Source: Methylobacillus sp. MM3 (GTDB lineage: Bacteria > Pseudomonadota > Gammaproteobacteria > Burkholderiales > Methylophilaceae). Taken from it: a stretch of 64,000 nucleotides of DNA. The notes under the pieces are model-generated. The model did not search any database, was not told the DNA's origin, and saw only the letters and a program-made list of their open reading frames with translations. The stretch covers positions 620,001 through 684,000 of the forward strand of contig NZ_LXTQ01000001.1 of assembly GCF_001645185.1 (NCBI RefSeq). Direction: 5' to 3'. Below, in pieces: positions 35,916-45,138 of the stretch; position 1 is the first letter of the stretch; every line of letters begins with the position of its first letter. The translations under genes were made by a program, and so were the position numbers.

Positions 35916-37238
35916 ATGATGGATGCCAATATCACTTTAATGCTTCGTGAGGCCACCACGGCAGAAGGGCAACTGCATTCTCCTCATTACCTCAAGACCG
36001 TCACGGAGCTCGGCGATGGCTCCAAGGTATATGCAATTCGCGACATCTGTTCCACCAAGGGGGTCAAACTCCTGCCTTCGGGCGCACAGGTCAACAGTTC
36101 CATCTATCAACGCCTCCTACATCACAAATTAGCACCCAAGCTGGATGACTGCCTGGAAACGGAAGAGGGTGTGAACAACCATACCCTGGTGGAAGAGGCA
36201 AACTCGCTTATTGATTCCGATGACAGCCTGTTACGCATGCGCAACGAAATGGCGGATGAAAACATGCTCTTCGACATTTTGACCAAGATTCCGCTCAAAC
36301 CCGGCCTGGCCTTCAAACTGACCGTCATGCGCGCGAAGCGCGAGGAGCTGTTCAAGCGCAGTCTTTACGTCACGCTGGTTGCCATTTATATCGGCGTTCA
36401 GTCGCGCCTGAACGAACAGCAACTGGTAAAGCTGGCAACAGCGGCATTGCTGCATGACATCGGGCTGCTCCACGTCGAGCCCAAAATGCTGGAGCTTTCA
36501 TACCGCATGACGAAGGAGGAGCGGCAGCATTTATACGCCCACCCCATTACTGCCTGGATGATATTGCAAGAAGAGCCTGAATACGCCAACGAAGTCGCCG
36601 AAGCAGTGCTGCACCATCACGAGCGACTCGATGGCAGCGGTTACCCTCAGGGCCTGGCGGGAGAGGTCATTAGTCAGTACGGACAGATCATTGCAATGGC
36701 CGAAGTTGTCGCCAGCCATTTCGGAAAAGATGACACGCATCATCAGCTGATGCGGCTGGAAACCATACTCAAACTTAATTCCAGACGATATGGGCGCAAT
36801 CTTATCGGGCATCTCAAGGTGTTTTATGCCGGCAATGTCACGCATCCGCAGATCACCGAAGAAGATAAGCAACTGGTCAGGCAGAGCCTGAATGTGTTTG
36901 CCGACGTGCTGAAATCCTGGGAGTCCATGCGCGAGCGCTTTGCAGCAAACAATCTTGGCACCTTCATCAACGAGCGCATGCAGGCATTGAAAATCGAAGC
37001 TCTTGACGCCGGCTTGAACCCTTACGCACTCGAGAACAATTTGCAGAATGCGACAGATTCAGAGGCCTCCGCCGAGTTGAATATTCTTCTGGATGAAATC
37101 ATCTGGCAAATCAAGGGTATTTTTCAGGAGAGCCGCCGCAGATGGCCCAAAATCGACCAAGGAACTTCATCTCTTGCTGCCGAAGATGTTCCGGCCTGGA
37201 TATCCACCGTTGAAAATCGCATGAGCCAGGCTTACTAA
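35916..37238 (+). CDS. HD-GYP domain protein (probable c-di-GMP phosphodiesterase)
   Basis: A 440-residue soluble protein. The N-terminal 140 residues are unassigned. The HD-GYP domain spans about 145-320 with the metal site HD in AALLHDIGLLHVEPK, His in LYAHPITAWMIL, and the signature HHHERLDGSGYPQGLAG. This signature marks enzymes that cut c-di-GMP to pGpG or GMP. The C-terminal 110 residues are helical with no known domain. No receiver or PAS domain is attached. A PAS-GGDEF protein seven kilobases away could be a counterpart, but a link is not shown. Confidence 0.87.
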   Translation: MMDANITLMLREATTAEGQLHSPHYLKTVTELGDGSKVYAIRDICSTKGVKLLPSGAQVNSSIYQRLLHHKLAPKLDDCLETEEGVNNHTLVEEANSLIDSDDSLLRMRNEMADENMLFDILTKIPLKPGLAFKLTVMRAKREELFKRSLYVTLVAIYIGVQSRLNEQQLVKLATAALLHDIGLLHVEPKMLELSYRMTKEERQHLYAHPITAWMILQEEPEYANEVAEAVLHHHERLDGSGYPQGLAGEVISQYGQIIAMAEVVASHFGKDDTHHQLMRLETILKLNSRRYGRNLIGHLKVFYAGNVTHPQITEEDKQLVRQSLNVFADVLKSWESMRERFAANNLGTFINERMQALKIEALDAGLNPYALENNLQNATDSEASAELNILLDEIIWQIKGIFQESRRRWPKIDQGTSSLAAEDVPAWISTVENRMSQAY

Positions 37239-37495: not shown

Positions 37496-39112
37496 ATGAC
37501 AAGATTTTTCTCCGCACAAAATCGCAGCATTGTTCTGACGGCGTTGTTCATTATGCTGACTGGCAACCTGTCGCTATTTCAGAGACTGCTCGAGCTTTAT
37601 CCTCTCAGCCTGGGAAATGTACCCTTTCTCCTCTCGCTGACCGCCTTCTTCACGATCACAACCGTGATCTTTTTCCTGTTTATATGCCATGGCAGAGCGA
37701 CGCGCTGGATTCTTGCCTTTTATCTGCTGGCCGCATCTCAAGCCGCTTATTACATGGATCAGTACGGAGTCATTATCGATACCGTAATGATCGACAATAT
37801 CCTTCAGACCAACCTCCAGGAATTTGCGGGGTTGATAAGCGCCAGCCTTGTGCTCAGAACACTATTACTTGGGGTATTGCCCGCATGGCTCGTACTCAAA
37901 TACAAGCCTGCGCTCCAGGATATTCGAACTGAATTGAAGTCCAAGGCCGCCTTGTTATTGCTATTGCTGGTTTCCCTCGTTGTCGTGATCGCTCCTTTTA
38001 CTGCCGGCTACGCATCTTTCATCCGCGAACACAAAATGACGCGGTCATACGCCAATCCGGTTTATTTCACCTATTCCATTATTCAGTATGTGAATCAGAT
38101 TCTTAAGCCCGAAGAAGCCATGACCTTGAAGAAAGTTGCCACGGATGCCGTCGAGGTCGGCTCAAGGAAAAAAAAGGAACTCATTATTCTGGTCGTCGGA
38201 GAAACAGCGAGAGCCGACCGCTTTTCGCTGAACGGATATGCCAGGGAAACCAACCCCGCACTCGAAAAACAGGGGGTCGTGAGCCTCACCCATGTATCTT
38301 CCTGCGGCACATCCACCGGAGAGTCTGTGCCCTGCATGTTTTCCATGATGAAACGGCATAACTTCGACCGGGAAAAAGCGCTCCATATCGAAAACGCGCT
38401 GGACGTGCTTTTTGAGCATGGCGTACAGGTGCTCTGGCGCGACAACAACTCCGACTCAAAGGGCGTTGCGGTGCGGATGCAATATGAAAACTTCAAGAAT
38501 CCGACGCTGAATCCCATCTGCGACGAAGAATGCAGGGATATCGGGATGCTGAGTGGCCTGGATCAATACATCGCGTCCAGAAAGAACCGGGACATGCTGA
38601 TCGTCCTGCACCAGATGGGCAACCACGGCCCGGAATATTACCGGCGATATCCCAAGGAGTTCGAACGGTTCAAGCCGGTGTGCATGACGGGTGAACTGAA
38701 GGATTGCACCAAGGAGGAAATCGATAATGCCTATGATAATGCCATCCTGTATACGGATTACTTTCTGTCCCAGGTGATCGATTTCCTCAAGAAATACGAC
38801 GGGCAATACGAAACGGCAATGTTATACATGAGCGACCATGGTGAATCACTGGGCGAGCATGGAATCTATCTGCATGCCGCCCCCTACCTGCTGGCCCCCA
38901 AAGAGCAAACCCATATTCCTGCCATCGTGTGGATGGGCAAGCATTTCGATTTCAATCTAGATCAACTCAAACCCTATCGTGACTACTCGTTCAGTCACGA
39001 CGATCTGTTCTGCACGCTACTTGTCGGATTCGAGATCGAATCGAAAATATGCGAGGGCAGGAAAAATGTCCTGTTTGAGAATCGCGATTTGAAAGCGGCA
39101 AGAAACGGTTGA
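37496..39112 (+). CDS. EptA-type phosphoethanolamine transferase
   Basis: A 538-residue inner-membrane alkaline-phosphatase-fold enzyme of the EptA/MCR family, which adds phosphoethanolamine from phosphatidylethanolamine to lipid A or other glycans. Five membrane helices occupy residues about 10-175. The periplasmic domain shows Glu236 (VVGETARADRF), the nucleophile Thr274 in SCGTSTGESVPCMFS flanked by a disulfide pair (Cys270/Cys280), and the zinc residues in MSDHGESLGEHG. Residue pattern matches MCR-1's Glu246, Thr285, Asp465 and His466. It is convergent with ispF. Acceptor and any effect on cationic peptide resistance are inferred from family. Confidence 0.9.
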   Translation: MTRFFSAQNRSIVLTALFIMLTGNLSLFQRLLELYPLSLGNVPFLLSLTAFFTITTVIFFLFICHGRATRWILAFYLLAASQAAYYMDQYGVIIDTVMIDNILQTNLQEFAGLISASLVLRTLLLGVLPAWLVLKYKPALQDIRTELKSKAALLLLLLVSLVVVIAPFTAGYASFIREHKMTRSYANPVYFTYSIIQYVNQILKPEEAMTLKKVATDAVEVGSRKKKELIILVVGETARADRFSLNGYARETNPALEKQGVVSLTHVSSCGTSTGESVPCMFSMMKRHNFDREKALHIENALDVLFEHGVQVLWRDNNSDSKGVAVRMQYENFKNPTLNPICDEECRDIGMLSGLDQYIASRKNRDMLIVLHQMGNHGPEYYRRYPKEFERFKPVCMTGELKDCTKEEIDNAYDNAILYTDYFLSQVIDFLKKYDGQYETAMLYMSDHGESLGEHGIYLHAAPYLLAPKEQTHIPAIVWMGKHFDFNLDQLKPYRDYSFSHDDLFCTLLVGFEIESKICEGRKNVLFENRDLKAARNG

Positions 39113-39155: not shown

Positions 39156-39632
39156 TCATATCCGTTCGATCAAACAAACCGCTTCGGCAGCGATCCCCTC
39201 GCCGCGTCCGGTAAAACCCAGGCGTTCGGAGGTCGTTGCCTTGACGTTGACGCAATCGGCGTCAATAGCCAGATCTAACGCGATATTCGCGCACATGGCC
39301 GCGATATGCTTTGCCAGCCTGGGCGCTTCCGCGATCACGGTCGCATCGACATTGACCACGCGGTAGCCCTTCTCCTTGATCAAGGCCGCGACATGCCGCA
39401 ATAACTCGCGCGAGTCGATGCCCTTGAAACGCGTGTCGGTATCGGGAAAATGCTTGCCGATGTCGCCCAGTGCCGCCGCGCCCAGCAGCGCGTCGCAGAC
39501 GGCATGCAGCAATACGTCGGCATCTGAGTGACCTTTCAGGCCTTTTTCATGCGGGATATCGACCCCGCCGATAATGCATTTGCGCCCTTCCACCAGTTGG
39601 TGAACATCGAAGCCGTGGCCGATTCTGATCAT
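39156..39632 (-). CDS. ispF: 2-C-methyl-D-erythritol 2,4-cyclodiphosphate synthase
   Basis: A 158-residue MEP-pathway enzyme that cyclises CDP-methylerythritol phosphate with release of CMP. The metal-binding residues are Asp9/His11 ([10 protein letters not shown]) and His43-equivalent in [33 protein letters not shown] and [20 protein letters not shown] are family hallmarks. The ATG overlaps the ispD stop, the usual ispDF coupling, and earlier in-frame starts overlap ispD deeply and are rejected. Confidence 0.97.
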
Positions 39633-40336
39633 GTGCTTGTTTCCGTGTTGTTCAGGAGGAGTTCGGCGATCACCAGATCCTCGGGGTAAGTGACCTTGAG
39701 ATTGTGTCCGTCGCCCATCACCAGCCGAGGGGCGTGACCCAAAAATTCCACCGCCTGCGCTTCGTCGGTCGGTGTGTCGGTACCGATGGCTTGCAGTGCG
39801 TCGCGCAGCAAGCCGTAGCGGAACATCTGCGGCGTCTGCGCCCGCCACAACCCGGCACGAGGCTCGGTGTGATCGACACGGCCGTTCTTGCCTTCTCGCT
39901 TGAGCGTGTCCGCCACGGGAACAGCGAGCAAGCCGCCCACCGGATCGTCCAACAATTCGGCAAAAAGATTGTCCAACATTTCCTGCGAAAGGCAGGGGCG
40001 AGCCGCATCATGCACCAGCACCCAGTCTGCGGATTGCGACTGTCCGGCGATTGCGTTCAATCCATTCAGCACGGTTTCAGCACGGGTTGCGCCACCGCAG
40101 CGCAGGACTTCGACTTTATCGCCCAGGGCAGAGTAATCGTACTGAGCCCAACCGGTGTCGTCCGGACTCAGCACGACGAACACTCGAGTGACCGCAGGAT
40201 GTACGCAGAATACGGAAAGTGTATGATGAATCATGGGCTTGCCGAGCAGTGGCAAATACTGTTTTGGCAGTTCCGCTCCCATGCGGCTGCCGCTGCCGGC
40301 TGCGGGAATCAGGGCATAGTTCTTGTGATTGGACAT
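39629..40336 (-). CDS. ispD: MEP cytidylyltransferase
   Basis: A 235-residue nucleotidyltransferase that activates methylerythritol phosphate with CTP. The CTP-binding loop [21 protein letters not shown] is at residues 10-30; VHDAARPCL and [10 protein letters not shown] are further family motifs. It is the first gene of ispDF and is divergent from the AmmeMemoRadiSam operon across 80 bp. Confidence 0.97.
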
Positions 40337-40416
40337 CGCAAAATCATAGCATGCCGGGTCTTGATTTCTGCCGGGTCACCACCATTTATTAGCCAGTTCT
40401 AATAAAGGAGCCATGC

Positions 40417-41220
40417 ATGTCAGCTGTCCGTCCTGCCGCCGTGGCAGGCATGTTCTATCCCGACAACGCCAAAACGCTGGCGCAAGATCTTGACGGCCTG
40501 TTGGCCGATGCCAGGCCGCGCGTGTTCGGGCTGGTGCCCAAGGCGCTGATCGTGCCGCATGCCGGCTATATCTATTCCGGCCCGATTGCCGCTTCCGCTT
40601 ATGCGCTGCTCGAGCCGCTGGCCGCGACCGTACGCCGGGTGATACTGCTCGGGCCTACACACCGCGTGGCCGTGCGCGGCTTGGCCTTGCCCGGCACCGA
40701 TGCCTTTGCTTCGCCGCTGGGAATCGTGAACATCGATCAGGATGCGGTTCGCCAGATTGCACAATTGCCGCAGGTGACCATCAGCCCGCAAGCCCATGCG
40801 CTGGAGCACTCGCTCGAAGTGCATTTGCCGTTTCTGCAAACGGTGCTGTCCGATTTCACGCTGCTGCCGCTGGCAGTGGGGATGGCCAGCGCCGAAGAGG
40901 TCGCGGAAGTGCTGGAAGCCGTGTGGGGCGGACCGGAAACATTGATCGTGATCAGTTCCGACCTTTCGCATTACCTGCCTTACGATGCTGCTACGGTGAC
41001 GGACAGCGCAACCGCGCAAACCATCCTGCGCCTGGAAGAAACCGTTACGCACCAGCAAGCCTGCGGCGGCACGCCGGTCAACGGCCTGATCGTGGCGGCG
41101 CGCCGCCATGGCATGACGCCGCACCTGCTCGATTTGCGCAATTCGGGCGATACCGCGGGGGATAAAAGCCGCGTGGTGGGCTACGGCGCGTTTGCATTTA
41201 CCGAGGCCGGCCATGACTGA
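40417..41220 (+). CDS. amrB: AmmeMemoRadiSam system protein B (MEMO1 family)
   Basis: A 267-residue MEMO-like protein with the class III extradiol dioxygenase fold. Family stretches include RPAAVAGMFYPDNAKTLAQDL, ALIVPHAGYIYSGPIAASAYALL, LLGPTHRVAVRGLALPG, the HSLEVHLPFLQ histidines and VISSDLSHYLPYDAA. Human MEMO1 binds metal, reported as copper or iron, and has no settled enzymatic role. It is the first gene of a three-gene operon found in bacteria and archaea, with an eight-base overlap into the AMMECR1-like gene. Confidence 0.93.
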   Translation: MSAVRPAAVAGMFYPDNAKTLAQDLDGLLADARPRVFGLVPKALIVPHAGYIYSGPIAASAYALLEPLAATVRRVILLGPTHRVAVRGLALPGTDAFASPLGIVNIDQDAVRQIAQLPQVTISPQAHALEHSLEVHLPFLQTVLSDFTLLPLAVGMASAEEVAEVLEAVWGGPETLIVISSDLSHYLPYDAATVTDSATAQTILRLEETVTHQQACGGTPVNGLIVAARRHGMTPHLLDLRNSGDTAGDKSRVVGYGAFAFTEAGHD

Positions 41221-41785
41221 AACCGAACGCGGCTCCACCCTGCTCATGCTGGCGCGCGAGGCGATTGCCGGGCGTCTCGGGCTGACATCTGCGCCCCCAA
41301 TGGAACATGAGCGCTGGCTACAGGAGGTAGGCGCGACATTCGTCACCCTGACCCAACGGCAACAATTGCGCGGCTGCATCGGCAGTTTGCTGGCGCATCG
41401 CCCGCTGCATGAGGATGTACGGGCCAATGCCGTGGCTGCCGGCTTCCGTGATCCGCGCTTTACGCCGCTGACCATCGCGGAATTCGAATCGACGCAGGTA
41501 GAAGTTTCCCTGCTTTCCCCGCAGGAGCCGATGGTATTTTCCGATGAGTTGGATGCGCTTTTGCAACTGCGCCCCGGCATAGACGGCATCGTGCTGGAAT
41601 ACGGCGCGTTGCGCGGCACCTTTCTGCCGCAGGTGTGGGAACAATTGCCGCTGGCGGAAGAGTTCATGGCCCACCTCAAGGTCAAGGCCGGGCTGCCGTC
41701 CACTTTCTGGGAAGAAGGCATCCGGCTGTCGCGTTACACCGTCACAAAATGGAAGGAATCCGATTTTACGGACATCGCTCAATGA
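41213..41785 (+). CDS. amrA: AmmeMemoRadiSam system protein A (AMMECR1 family)
   Basis: A 190-residue AMMECR1-domain protein. The conserved hexapeptide LRGCIG is present in QQLRGCIGSLLAHRPLHEDVRANAVAAGFRDPRFTPL. PLTIAEFESTQVEVSLLSP and GIDGIVLEYGALRGTFLPQVWEQLP are further family motifs. The biochemical activity of AMMECR1 is unknown. The ATG inside the end of the MEMO gene gives the usual N-terminus, and the stop overlaps the radical SAM start (ATGA), so all three proteins are translationally coupled. Confidence 0.92.
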   Translation: MTETERGSTLLMLAREAIAGRLGLTSAPPMEHERWLQEVGATFVTLTQRQQLRGCIGSLLAHRPLHEDVRANAVAAGFRDPRFTPLTIAEFESTQVEVSLLSPQEPMVFSDELDALLQLRPGIDGIVLEYGALRGTFLPQVWEQLPLAEEFMAHLKVKAGLPSTFWEEGIRLSRYTVTKWKESDFTDIAQ

Positions 41786-42876
41786 ACGACGCCATCGACA
41801 TTCTCGAACGCACTCCCGCCCGCTACTGGCACTTGCTGGACGACGGCCGCATCCAGTGCGACCTGTGTCCGCGCGACTGCAAGCTGCATGAAGGCCAGCG
41901 CGGCGCATGCTTTGTGCGGGCACGCAGCGGCGATGAGATGGTGCTGACCACTTACGGCCGCTCCTCGGGCTTCTGTGTCGACCCGGTCGAAAAGAAACCG
42001 CTGAATCATTTCTATCCCGGCTCCAGCATCCTGTCGTTCGGCACCGCCGGCTGCAACCTCGCATGCAAGTTCTGCCAGAACTGGGATATCTCCAAATCGC
42101 GCGACTTCGACCGCCTGGCCGACCAGGCCACACCGGAAGCCATCGCCCGCGCGGCGCGAGAAAAAGGCTGCAAGAGCGTAGCTTTCACCTATAACGACCC
42201 GGTGATTTTCGCCGAATACGCGATGGACGTTGCCGATGCCTGCCATGATGCCGGCATACAGGCAGTAGCCGTCACGGCTGGTTATATGCACGATCAGCCG
42301 CGGCGCGATTTCTACGCCAAAATGGATGCGGCCAATGTGGATCTGAAAGCTTTCACCGAAGCGTTCTACTACAAGCTCACCGGCGCGCACTTGCAGCCGG
42401 TGCTGGACACATTGCGTTATCTCAAGCACGAAACCAGCGTGTGGTTCGAGATCACGACATTGCTGATTCCCGGCTGCAACGATTCCGACGCCGAGATCGG
42501 CGCGATGTGCGACTGGATTGCGAAAGAGCTCGGCACCGATGTGCCGCTGCACTTCACCGCCTTCCACCCGGATTACAAAATGACCGACCTGCCGCCGACA
42601 CCGCCGGCAACCTTGACTCGTGCCCGCAACATCGGTCTGTCCGCAGGCTTGCAGTACGTCTACACCGGCAACGTACATGACACCGAGGGCGGCACGACCT
42701 TCTGCCCACATTGCCAAAGCCCGCTGATCGTGCGCGACTGGCATGATATCCGGCATTACGACCTGACCGAAGCCGGCGCTTGCTCGCACTGTGGCACGCC
42801 TGTCGCCGGGCGTTTCGCAAAATTCGAAAATCAGTTCGGCCGCCGCCGCATTCCGCTGAAAATCGCAAATTTCTGA
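41782..42876 (+). CDS. amrS: AmmeMemoRadiSam system radical SAM enzyme
   Basis: A 364-residue radical SAM enzyme. An N-terminal Cys-rich segment (CDLCPRDCKLHEGQRGACFVR) precedes the core with the cluster motif CNLACKFC (CxxxCxxC) followed by QNWDISKS. A C-terminal zinc-type pair of CxxC motifs (FCPHCQS and CSHCGTP) closes the protein. The family resembles pyruvate formate-lyase activating enzymes and its substrate is not established; modification of a partner encoded in the operon is possible. The long upstream frame is rejected because the ATGA junction gives the family start. Confidence 0.93.
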   Translation: MNDAIDILERTPARYWHLLDDGRIQCDLCPRDCKLHEGQRGACFVRARSGDEMVLTTYGRSSGFCVDPVEKKPLNHFYPGSSILSFGTAGCNLACKFCQNWDISKSRDFDRLADQATPEAIARAAREKGCKSVAFTYNDPVIFAEYAMDVADACHDAGIQAVAVTAGYMHDQPRRDFYAKMDAANVDLKAFTEAFYYKLTGAHLQPVLDTLRYLKHETSVWFEITTLLIPGCNDSDAEIGAMCDWIAKELGTDVPLHFTAFHPDYKMTDLPPTPPATLTRARNIGLSAGLQYVYTGNVHDTEGGTTFCPHCQSPLIVRDWHDIRHYDLTEAGACSHCGTPVAGRFAKFENQFGRRRIPLKIANF

Positions 42877-42956
42877 ATCATTGTGATATCAATTTAGAGC
42901 ATACCCAATATGCTCCATGGGTAGGATATAGAAATTCAGAAGACCAATTAAGAAAA

Positions 42957-43907
42957 ATGAGGATGGACTCGCAGACCGACATTACCGAGCGTCGCACGAA
43001 AGACGAAATGCTTAATTTGTCGCGCGTCGTCTTCGAGTCAGCGGAGGAAGGCATCATGGTGACCGACGCCGAACGCCGGATCGTCATGGTGAACCCGGCA
43101 TTCACGTCGATTACCGGATACCTGCCCGACGAAGTCATCGGACGCGATTCGAACATGATGTCGTCCGGTCATCACGACCAGCTCTTTTATCAATCGCTTT
43201 GGGATGAAGTACGCCAACACGGAAGCTGGCACGGCGAAATCGCGAATCGCCACAAAAGCGGCCGGCATTATCTGGAATGGCTGTCGATACGCGCGGTTAT
43301 CGACCCGCAAGGCCGAACGACCCATTATGTCGGCATTTTCAGCGATATTACCGAGCGCAAGGAGGGCGAGGAACGCATGCGCTACCTCGCCCATTACGAC
43401 GCGCTCACCGGCCTGCCCAACCGCACCCTGCTGATGGATCGCCTGCAACAAGGCATGGCGCAAACGCGGCGCGACAATGGCCGGATGGCGGTGATGTTCC
43501 TCGATCTTGATCGCTTCAAGCCCGTGAATGACCAGCTCGGGCACGAAACCGGCGACCGCCTGCTGTGCGAAGTCGCCATGCGCCTGCAGAACTGCATGCG
43601 CGAAAGCGACACCGTGGGACGTATTGGTGGGGACGAATTCGTCATTCTGCTGCACGGCATCGAGCATTCCGATGCTGCCATCCTGGTTGCCCGCAAGATC
43701 ATCAAGGCACTGGAACAGCCATTCGATCTCGGCAATCAAGCCATTAGCATCTCGGCCAGTATCGGCATTGCGCTATACCCCGACCACGACGGCGACGAAT
43801 CCATGCTGATCAAGATGGCCGACATCGCGATGTATGAGGCCAAGAGCGAAAAGAGCGGGCACTTCCGGGTTTTCGACCTTGCCATGCTCGTCAGTCAGGC
43901 GCTTTAA
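42957..43907 (+). CDS. PAS-GGDEF diguanylate cyclase
   Basis: A 316-residue cytoplasmic signalling enzyme. A PAS domain with PAC motif covers residues about 20-140 (VVFESAEEGIMVTDAERRIVMVNPAFTSITGY, ending YVGIFSDITERKEGEER). The GGDEF domain covers about 145-310 with LDLDRFKPVND and the intact signature GRIGGDEFVILL. An RESD sequence five residues before GGDEF is the RxxD inhibitory site, so product feedback is likely. It would make c-di-GMP. The ATG is used because an upstream TTG frame extends into the radical SAM gene. A 7-bp inverted repeat (42897-42915) lies just before it. Confidence 0.88.
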   Translation: MRMDSQTDITERRTKDEMLNLSRVVFESAEEGIMVTDAERRIVMVNPAFTSITGYLPDEVIGRDSNMMSSGHHDQLFYQSLWDEVRQHGSWHGEIANRHKSGRHYLEWLSIRAVIDPQGRTTHYVGIFSDITERKEGEERMRYLAHYDALTGLPNRTLLMDRLQQGMAQTRRDNGRMAVMFLDLDRFKPVNDQLGHETGDRLLCEVAMRLQNCMRESDTVGRIGGDEFVILLHGIEHSDAAILVARKIIKALEQPFDLGNQAISISASIGIALYPDHDGDESMLIKMADIAMYEAKSEKSGHFRVFDLAMLVSQAL

Positions 43908-44643: not shown

Positions 44644-45138
44644 CTATTGAAAACCGGGCCTGCGGCGTGCCGGGATCAACGCCAGCGCAGCCAGTTGTTC
44701 ATGCAGTTCGTGCATGGAGAACTTACTGTAATCCTTGGCGACCTCCTTGATCTCGAATCCGTTATTGCGGTGTAATTCGTCACGCAACATACCGAGCATG
44801 CGATTGTCGGCGGTCACCACTACTCGGGCAGCACCTTCGTTGCGTGCCAGTGCTGCGGTTTCGCCAGCCACGGACTGCACGAATCGTCGCTCGTACTCGG
44901 CCCGATGCTGATTGCGGTGATCGTCATAACGGTGCACGCCCCCTCCGGCCGCACCGCGATTGCTGCCGCTCCTGCTGTCGGACCACAGTTCCTTGCTGCT
45001 GGCCGTCTGCTCGGGATTCGTCAATGTTCCATGCTCCACCATGCGCGGGCTGGATTCGAATTCGGGTGTCTCGGCAGGACGCAAACTGAAGAAGCGTGCA
45101 AGAGAGCCATTGGCGACGACGATGATGATATTCAACAT
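44644..45138 (-). CDS. Host attachment family protein
   Basis: A 164-residue protein of the family named for Agrobacterium attachment proteins. It opens with LNIIIVVANGSLARFFSL, followed by a variable charged middle and a C-terminal half with FVQSVAGETAALARNEGAARVVVTADNRMLGMLRDEL, resembling the eRF1/pelota domain 3 fold. No signal peptide or membrane segment is seen, so a direct surface role is doubtful; a ribosome-rescue-like role has only fold-level support. It is upstream of pcm in the same orientation. Confidence 0.8.
   Translation of the reverse strand: MLNIIIVVANGSLARFFSLRPAETPEFESSPRMVEHGTLTNPEQTASSKELWSDSRSGSNRGAAGGGVHRYDDHRNQHRAEYERRFVQSVAGETAALARNEGAARVVVTADNRMLGMLRDELHRNNGFEIKEVAKDYSKFSMHELHEQLAALALIPARRRPGFQ

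Follow-up and report, generated by a model that had tools for sequence, protein, structure and literature searches.

An intact AmmeMemoRadiSam operon in Methylobacillus sp. MM3 and an exported-looking sister branch among its relatives

Introduction

The AmmeMemoRadiSam system combines a MEMO protein, an AMMECR1-domain protein and a radical S-adenosylmethionine (SAM) enzyme, and an operon encoding all three lies at positions 40417–42876 of a 64,000-nucleotide stretch of the Methylobacillus sp. MM3 genome (NZ_LXTQ01000001.1, positions 620,001 to 684,000; this whole stretch is referred to as the window). Homologues of two of the three proteins exist in humans, where their function is unsettled, and human MEMO1 is not known to have a radical SAM partner. 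In 2019, Burroughs et al. (J. Biol. Chem., doi 10.1074/jbc.RA119.007595) reportedly described the MEMO clade and the contexts in which it occurs with AMMECR1 and radical SAM proteins, and are said to have linked the clade to nucleotide-base and isoprenoid modification. This prior comparative work is cited in PMC7159879. Human MEMO1 binds iron or copper at a His-His-Cys site, and with the substrates tried it was not active as a dioxygenase (PMC11081632). An earlier note on this DNA, made from the sequence alone, held that the reaction of the trio is not established, and in agreement with it literature searches turned up no study of that reaction.

The trio in the window is an intact, ordinary, non-exported member of the known system. 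What is new lies in its relatives: computational comparison suggests an extracytoplasmic place of action for a large sister branch, together with its radical SAM enzyme, and this would narrow the possible function of the system.

The operon in Methylobacillus sp. MM3

The stretch 40417–42876 is taken up exactly by three genes on the same strand, without internal stops:

40417–41220, plus strand: MEMO (AmmeMemoRadiSam system protein B, TIGR04336), 267 amino acids, without signal peptide
41213–41785, plus strand: AMMECR1-domain protein (system protein A, TIGR04335), 190 amino acids, ATG at 41213
41782–42876, plus strand: AmmeMemoRadiSam radical SAM enzyme (TIGR04337), 364 amino acids, ATG at 41782, without signal peptide

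The assignment made in the earlier note is borne out by these adjacent genes, each of which exceeds its NCBIfam cut-off over the whole or nearly the whole profile: MEMO scores 264.5 bits against a cut-off of 26, AMMECR1 188.3 against 99 and the radical SAM enzyme 650.8 against 220. The Pfam models Memo (170 bits), AMMECR1 and Radical_SAM (PF04055, 62.8 bits) likewise score above their gathering thresholds. MEMO is matched to human MEMO1 by phmmer (E 2.3e-22), and AMMECR1 is matched to the PDB entries 1wsc, 1vaj and 1zq7. The overlaps between the genes, also claimed before, are 8 bases for MEMO and AMMECR1 and 4 bases (ATGA) for AMMECR1 and the radical SAM gene, from which translational coupling of the trio would follow. 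A chance origin is excluded, because of the profile scores and because the order MEMO-AMMECR1-radical SAM is kept on one strand in 30/30 same-order loci, the window's included (in one of them, L016, a contig end cuts MEMO).

The genes were further said to be complete, and the motifs named for them are indeed present. In the radical SAM enzyme, the CxxxCxxC motif corresponds to C91, C95 and C98, and further cysteines lie in the N-terminal region (C26, C29, C33 and C43) and in the C-terminal region (C308 and C311, C334 and C337); all of these except C308 and C311 are listed as invariant or nearly so across relatives. The LRGCIG motif of AMMECR1 spans residues 52–57, with C55 invariant in relatives. 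In MEMO, H48, H82, D182 and H185 are invariant and H131 and C216 nearly invariant, position 216 being Cys in 99 of the 100 relatives that have the column. In cut-offs, adjacency and motifs, no departure from AmmeMemoRadiSam was seen.

The radical SAM enzyme was modelled with a predicted local distance difference test (pLDDT) score of 93.5 and a predicted template modelling (pTM) score of 0.92. Its best PDB match is the pyruvate formate-lyase (PFL)-activating enzyme 3cb8 (E 6.3e-14, 18% identity), whose E-value is roughly five orders of magnitude better than those of the other fold matches. Together with CxxxCxxC and PF04055, this match places the protein in the radical SAM superfamily. The nearest other families by hidden Markov model (HMM) include the glycyl-radical activases, although the best score there (TIGR02493, 57.7 bits) falls below the cut-off of 231.75 bits. 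Known members of this activase-like group act on proteins. The window enzyme shares the fold and the cluster motif of the PFL-activating enzyme (3cb8, 3c8f), but it has a TYNDP sequence aligned with the GGE region of the latter and carries the extra invariant N- and C-terminal cysteines.

The MEMO protein departs from the His-His-Glu/Asp iron site of extradiol (LigB/PCAD) enzymes in its conserved Cys216. The metal ligands are His-His-Cys in MEMO as against His-His-Glu in extradiol dioxygenases, and C216 would correspond to C244 of human MEMO1 (PMC11081632).

Co-inheritance and fusion

MEMO, AMMECR1 and the radical SAM enzyme each score above cut-off in the identical 30 of 100 same-order genomes, and none does so in the other 70, among which sub-threshold matches exist (for instance, to the radical SAM enzyme in G063 and to MEMO in G071). 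The distribution is patchy, since the trio is absent from G001, the sole other member of the genus among the genomes searched. In 6 of 28 same-order loci, one reading frame encodes both MEMO and AMMECR1; one same-order positive on a short contig, G065, is left out of this count and of the ispD count.

Genome contigs were scanned with a diverse radical SAM alignment. The best 80 of 527 confirmed matches, which come from two archaea and from bacteria of numerous phyla, are the named loci, so that fractions of named loci describe that set only. Both partners lie in the locus DNA in 36 of the 80, one partner in 3 and neither in 41, some contigs being short. In 29 of the 36 loci with both, the two partners are fused in a single frame. 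In the 41 loci without nearby partners, the genome holds MEMO elsewhere in 40 and AMMECR1 in 37. In the wider phylum, the radical SAM enzyme exceeds its cut-off in 95/299 genomes, and 14 of these 95, chosen mostly for odd arrangements, have AMMECR1 in 10 and MEMO in 11. Both partners sit on contigs other than that of the radical SAM gene in G126, G196, G254, G258 and G386, AMMECR1 lies about 330 kb from it in G201, and G228 and G121 have only a divergent third type of the enzyme. Thus, linkage is weaker across phyla than in the order of the window; co-occurrence is wide and the operon form is not universal.

The natural MEMO-AMMECR1 fusion of a betaproteobacterial relative (L186) was modelled, and each half is well predicted. 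The MEMO half shares the fold of human MEMO1 (7kq8, 7l5c), matching the iron-bound form 7kq8 with Z 34.7 and a root-mean-square deviation (rmsd) of 1.8 over 256 aligned residues, whereas extradiol dioxygenases reach Z values of about 14 to 17. The AMMECR1 half shares LRGCIG and the fold with archaeal AMMECR1 (1vaj, 1zq7, 1wsc), with Z 19.0 to 22.5, 180 to 183 aligned residues and rmsd 2.4 to 3.9, the highest match being 1vaj (Z 22.5). The archaeal chains, at about 200 amino acids, leave no room for a MEMO domain.

Several side observations concern these relatives. The divergent third-type TIGR04337 enzymes of L085 (1693-3183), L086 (7166-8650) and L087 have a C-terminal extension of about 150 amino acids, and their loci lack MEMO and AMMECR1; they may be the type tied to FtsH ternary systems in PMC7159879. 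Three or four MEMO matches apiece are present in some named genomes (for instance, G412, G413, G417 and G420), in which MEMO paralogues that are not part of the trio seem to be frequent. G313, of the same genus group (g141) as G296, has a radical SAM match in two parts with an internal stop, and the trio seems to be decaying in this group. The Magnetococcia paralogues have an in-frame TGA close to their end, for which selenocysteine was considered and rejected: the TGA directly follows a conserved C-terminal GVWx, no conservation was seen behind it (the close relatives L083 and L084 differ freely there), and it was read as a natural stop past which the profile runs on, no search for a selenocysteine insertion sequence having been made.

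An exported-looking sister branch

Compared with window-type AmmeMemoRadiSam, a sister branch has added export-type signals and membrane partners. In 49 of the 80 named loci, the radical SAM enzyme carries a twin-arginine translocation (Tat)-like signal or an N-terminal anchor, as called by simple rules (hydropathy and regular expressions) in 45 cases and by eye in 4 (L110, L133, L147 and L152). The scripted calls divide into 28 Tat-like motifs and 17 other hydrophobic signals or anchors, against 0/29 same-order and 0/49 same-phylum loci. A Tat motif is expected by shuffling in a mean of 0.4 and a maximum of 3 of the 49 exported-type N-termini (500 shuffles) and is found in 28, and Tat models were the most frequent library match of the N-terminal fragments (TIGR01409 in 12/51 and PF10518 in 11/51, E at most 0.1). 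A looser hydropathy rule flags 1/79 window-class enzymes and misses 13/49 of the exported type. In a quick tree of 114 radical SAM enzymes, with support from the Shimodaira–Hasegawa-like approximate likelihood ratio test (SH-aLRT) and without bootstrap, the exported label needs 4 changes as against a shuffled mean of 37 (0/500 as low), and the window enzyme falls within a purely non-exported set of 35 rows (SH-aLRT 98). The exported-type loci lie in L099–L166 (for instance, L117:3725-4963), and where they hold MEMO-AMMECR1, a signal peptide or lipobox is usual there too.

The partner proteins can be compared in the same way. For counts of residues, neighbours and MEMO N-termini, the window's class includes same-order and same-phylum relatives that are partly absent from the tree; L085–L087 are left out of all three class counts and L088–L093 out of the neighbour count. 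A hydrophobic MEMO N-terminus occurs in 21/22 testable partners of an exported-type radical SAM enzyme and in 1/47 of the window's class, with 17 window-class MEMOs that are cut by a contig edge set aside. TatC was found in 34/36 genomes with a Tat-type enzyme and in 4/13 with an anchor-type one (p 1.6e-5) when the split was made by eye, and in 27/28 against 7/17 (p 5.5e-5) by the script's own grouping; the genomes of L111 and L118, which have a Tat-type signal, gave no TatC match. Catalytic residues show about the same degree of invariance in the exported set and in the class of the window. On these comparisons, the export signals look real and the exported-type enzymes look intact.

The branch bears on the idea that the trio modifies nucleotides or RNA bases. 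The MEMO fold is phosphorylase/hydrolase-like, and a nucleotide-base link was reportedly proposed by Burroughs et al. in 2019, but enzymes with export-type signals on both the radical SAM protein and MEMO-AMMECR1 would not reach cytosolic RNA, and such a role is very unlikely.

Membrane and redox neighbours

Genes beside the exported-type enzymes differ from those in the window's class, and a third group, made up of 27 signal-less radical SAM enzymes outside that class, can be set beside both. A polytopic membrane protein whose central domain is spermidine-synthase-like is present in 26/49 exported-type, 6/27 third-group and 1/55 window-class loci; in L141, for instance, this domain (NF037959, 74.7 bits against 40) is surrounded by about 12 to 13 hydrophobic segments. 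DUF362 proteins occur in 9/49, 0/27 and 0/55, and FMN_bind/Fer4_5 proteins (NosR-, RnfG- and NapH-like) in 6/49, 6/27 and 0/55, respectively. Any of these modules (spermidine-synthase-like, redox or DUF362) is found in 35/49 exported-type and 1/55 window-class loci, a comparison in which the module HMMs were seeded from the tested loci themselves and the flanks reach up to 10 kb for the exported type as against about 6 kb for most window-class loci. Among loci whose flanks reach 3.5 kb or more on each side, the counts are 21/30 and 0/12. The NosR/NapH-like neighbour was tried as a marker of the exported branch and rejected: a first test was not significant (6/45 against 2/35, p 0.46), and although purpose-built HMMs separate the branch from the window's class (6/49 against 0/55, p 0.009), it is at least as common in the group with signal-less radical SAM enzymes (6/27).

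Some of these functions are joined in one protein. In L076 (4893-8888) and L078 (8289-12122), a single polypeptide beside the radical SAM gene combines a transporter-like membrane region with spermidine-synthase-like, FMN_bind and Fer4_5 domains; L096 (14551-18432) is similar, with Pfam matches to FMN_bind and Fer4_5, while its aminopropyltransferase match does not reach the NCBIfam cut-off, and L101 and L104 join DsbD_2, FMN_bind and Fer4_5. Electron transfer across the membrane is a common role of FMN_bind and DsbD-type proteins, and a radical SAM enzyme on the outside would need such a supply. The redox module may, however, serve MEMO-AMMECR1 and not the radical SAM enzyme, because L076, L078 and L096 are third-group loci. 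It is a guess that SAM comes from the spermidine-synthase-like protein. To our knowledge, radical SAM catalysis has not been established outside the cytoplasm, and a literature text search for periplasmic radical SAM and similar phrases gave no paper. Three papers mention both radical SAM and a Tat signal, one of them in an unrelated context. On balance, and by a small measure, we expect that the phylum-spanning sister branch is extracytoplasmic, with an intact radical SAM enzyme that is exported by Tat or, where Tat is missing, anchored in the membrane, a secreted or lipoprotein MEMO-AMMECR1 fusion, electrons delivered by NosR/RnfG/NapH/DsbD-like proteins and perhaps SAM by the transporter-like protein.

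Alternatively, the trio could serve metal handling or redox protection, with no organic substrate of its own. FMN_bind/Fer4_5 membrane proteins near the radical SAM gene in 12/76 loci outside the window's class are consistent with this, as is the binding of iron and copper by human MEMO1 at His-His-Cys (PMC11081632), yet a radical SAM enzyme with invariant catalytic cysteines would be costly for mere metal storage, and the idea appears improbable.

A proposed function for the trio

Co-inheritance, the MEMO-AMMECR1 fusion and the exported-looking branch help to choose between explanations. Tentatively, and at less than even confidence, we propose that the trio is one functional unit in which the radical SAM enzyme acts directly on a metal-dependent, redox-type MEMO-AMMECR1 enzyme. 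Direct action is favoured by the joint signals on the radical SAM enzyme and MEMO-AMMECR1, by the fusion and by the activase-like fold; the signals occur together as expected if both must meet. The shared presence of the three genes, and the retention of MEMO and AMMECR1 in most genomes where they are unlinked, likewise speak for one unit. MEMO would supply the His-His-Cys metal pocket on an extradiol-dioxygenase fold, and AMMECR1 the conserved partner domain bearing LRGCIG, the two presumably in contact also where they are unfused. The PFL-activase-like enzyme would cleave SAM and act on MEMO-AMMECR1, its presumed substrate, in a maturation or activation step without a freely diffusing product. 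The final chemistry would then be a redox step at the MEMO metal site. In the organism of the window, all of these steps would be cytosolic.

The trio may instead form a sequential small-molecule pathway, in which the radical SAM enzyme converts a metabolite and the metal-dependent MEMO-AMMECR1 its product, with no mutual modification, and we regard this as only slightly less likely than direct action. Several observations weigh against direct action, and part of them point to this route. In the third group, 13/16 testable MEMO partners carry a signal beside a signal-less radical SAM enzyme, so that contact would have to precede export. For such a group, with a signal on MEMO-AMMECR1 only, the anaerobic sulfatase-maturating enzymes, another radical SAM family, offer a model, being cytosolic enzymes that act on an exported protein target. 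The genes are unlinked in about half of the named loci, neither partner being near the radical SAM gene in 41/80, or in 13/36 of those with 5 kb or more on each side. Partner-less cases exist as well: G270 has MEMO and the radical SAM enzyme without AMMECR1 and G296 the radical SAM enzyme alone, both genomes being estimated as 100% complete. Among named genomes, mostly metagenome-assembled, G409 has neither partner and G397, G425 and G455 have no AMMECR1. In the control panels, Haloferax is positive for AMMECR1 and negative for MEMO and the radical SAM enzyme, and the human proteins keep LRGCIG and the MEMO pocket without a radical SAM enzyme. Finally, no radical SAM gene joined in one reading frame to MEMO or AMMECR1 was found in the named loci, and the L186 fusion model (pTM 0.66) gave no fixed MEMO-AMMECR1 orientation or interface.

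Conversely, a diffusible product does not require the export-type N-terminus that the radical SAM enzyme has in 49/80 named loci, and among the neighbours across phyla no metabolic gene is prominent except that for the spermidine-synthase-like membrane protein.

Flanking genes and isoprenoid metabolism

Upstream of the operon, on the opposite strand, lie two genes of isoprenoid synthesis:

39629–40336, minus strand: ispD, divergent neighbour (TIGR00453, 237 bits against 181)
39156–39632, minus strand: ispF, overlapping ispD, start set by homology (TIGR00151, 233 bits against 116)

The starts of ispD and MEMO are separated by an 80-base divergent intergenic region (40336–40417), and this divergent arrangement is common to several families of the order. 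It has raised the possibility that the trio modifies an isoprenoid or a precursor. An isoprenoid link for MEMO was reportedly proposed by Burroughs et al. in 2019, and ispD lies near the operon on the opposite strand in 16/47 loci (11/28 same-order and 3/6 named betaproteobacterial), 3 of the 16 having 1.3 to 3.8 kb between ispD and the operon. Archaeal MEMO genes sit in a mevalonate operon, although archaeal MEMO was negative in a decarboxylase assay (PMC3857490). However, ispD occurs in only 3/80 named loci, all betaproteobacterial, which leaves the link unsupported in other bacterial phyla, and the bacterial association may be inherited synteny. Isoprenoid-linked chemistry is therefore given a low probability.

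Four other genes were noted in the flanking regions:

35916–37238, plus strand: HD-domain protein resembling cyclic di-GMP phosphodiesterases
37496–39112, plus strand: EptA-type phosphoethanolamine-lipid A transferase near the ispF-ispD pair (NF028537, 602 bits)
42780–43907, plus strand: PAS-GGDEF protein downstream of the operon, on the same strand
44644–45138, minus strand: Host_attach/baeRF family 12 protein (Pfam, 98.5 bits)

Significance

Whatever function is proposed for the trio must work in the cytosol, as in the window, and, if the export signals are real, outside the cytoplasm as well. Such a constraint would disfavour action on tRNA, nucleotides or cytosolic precursors and would favour a trio whose targets are its own members or a component of the envelope. 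If the radical SAM enzyme is indeed extracytoplasmic in the sister branch, SAM and low-potential electrons must reach it by some route, for which the co-located membrane genes are candidates.

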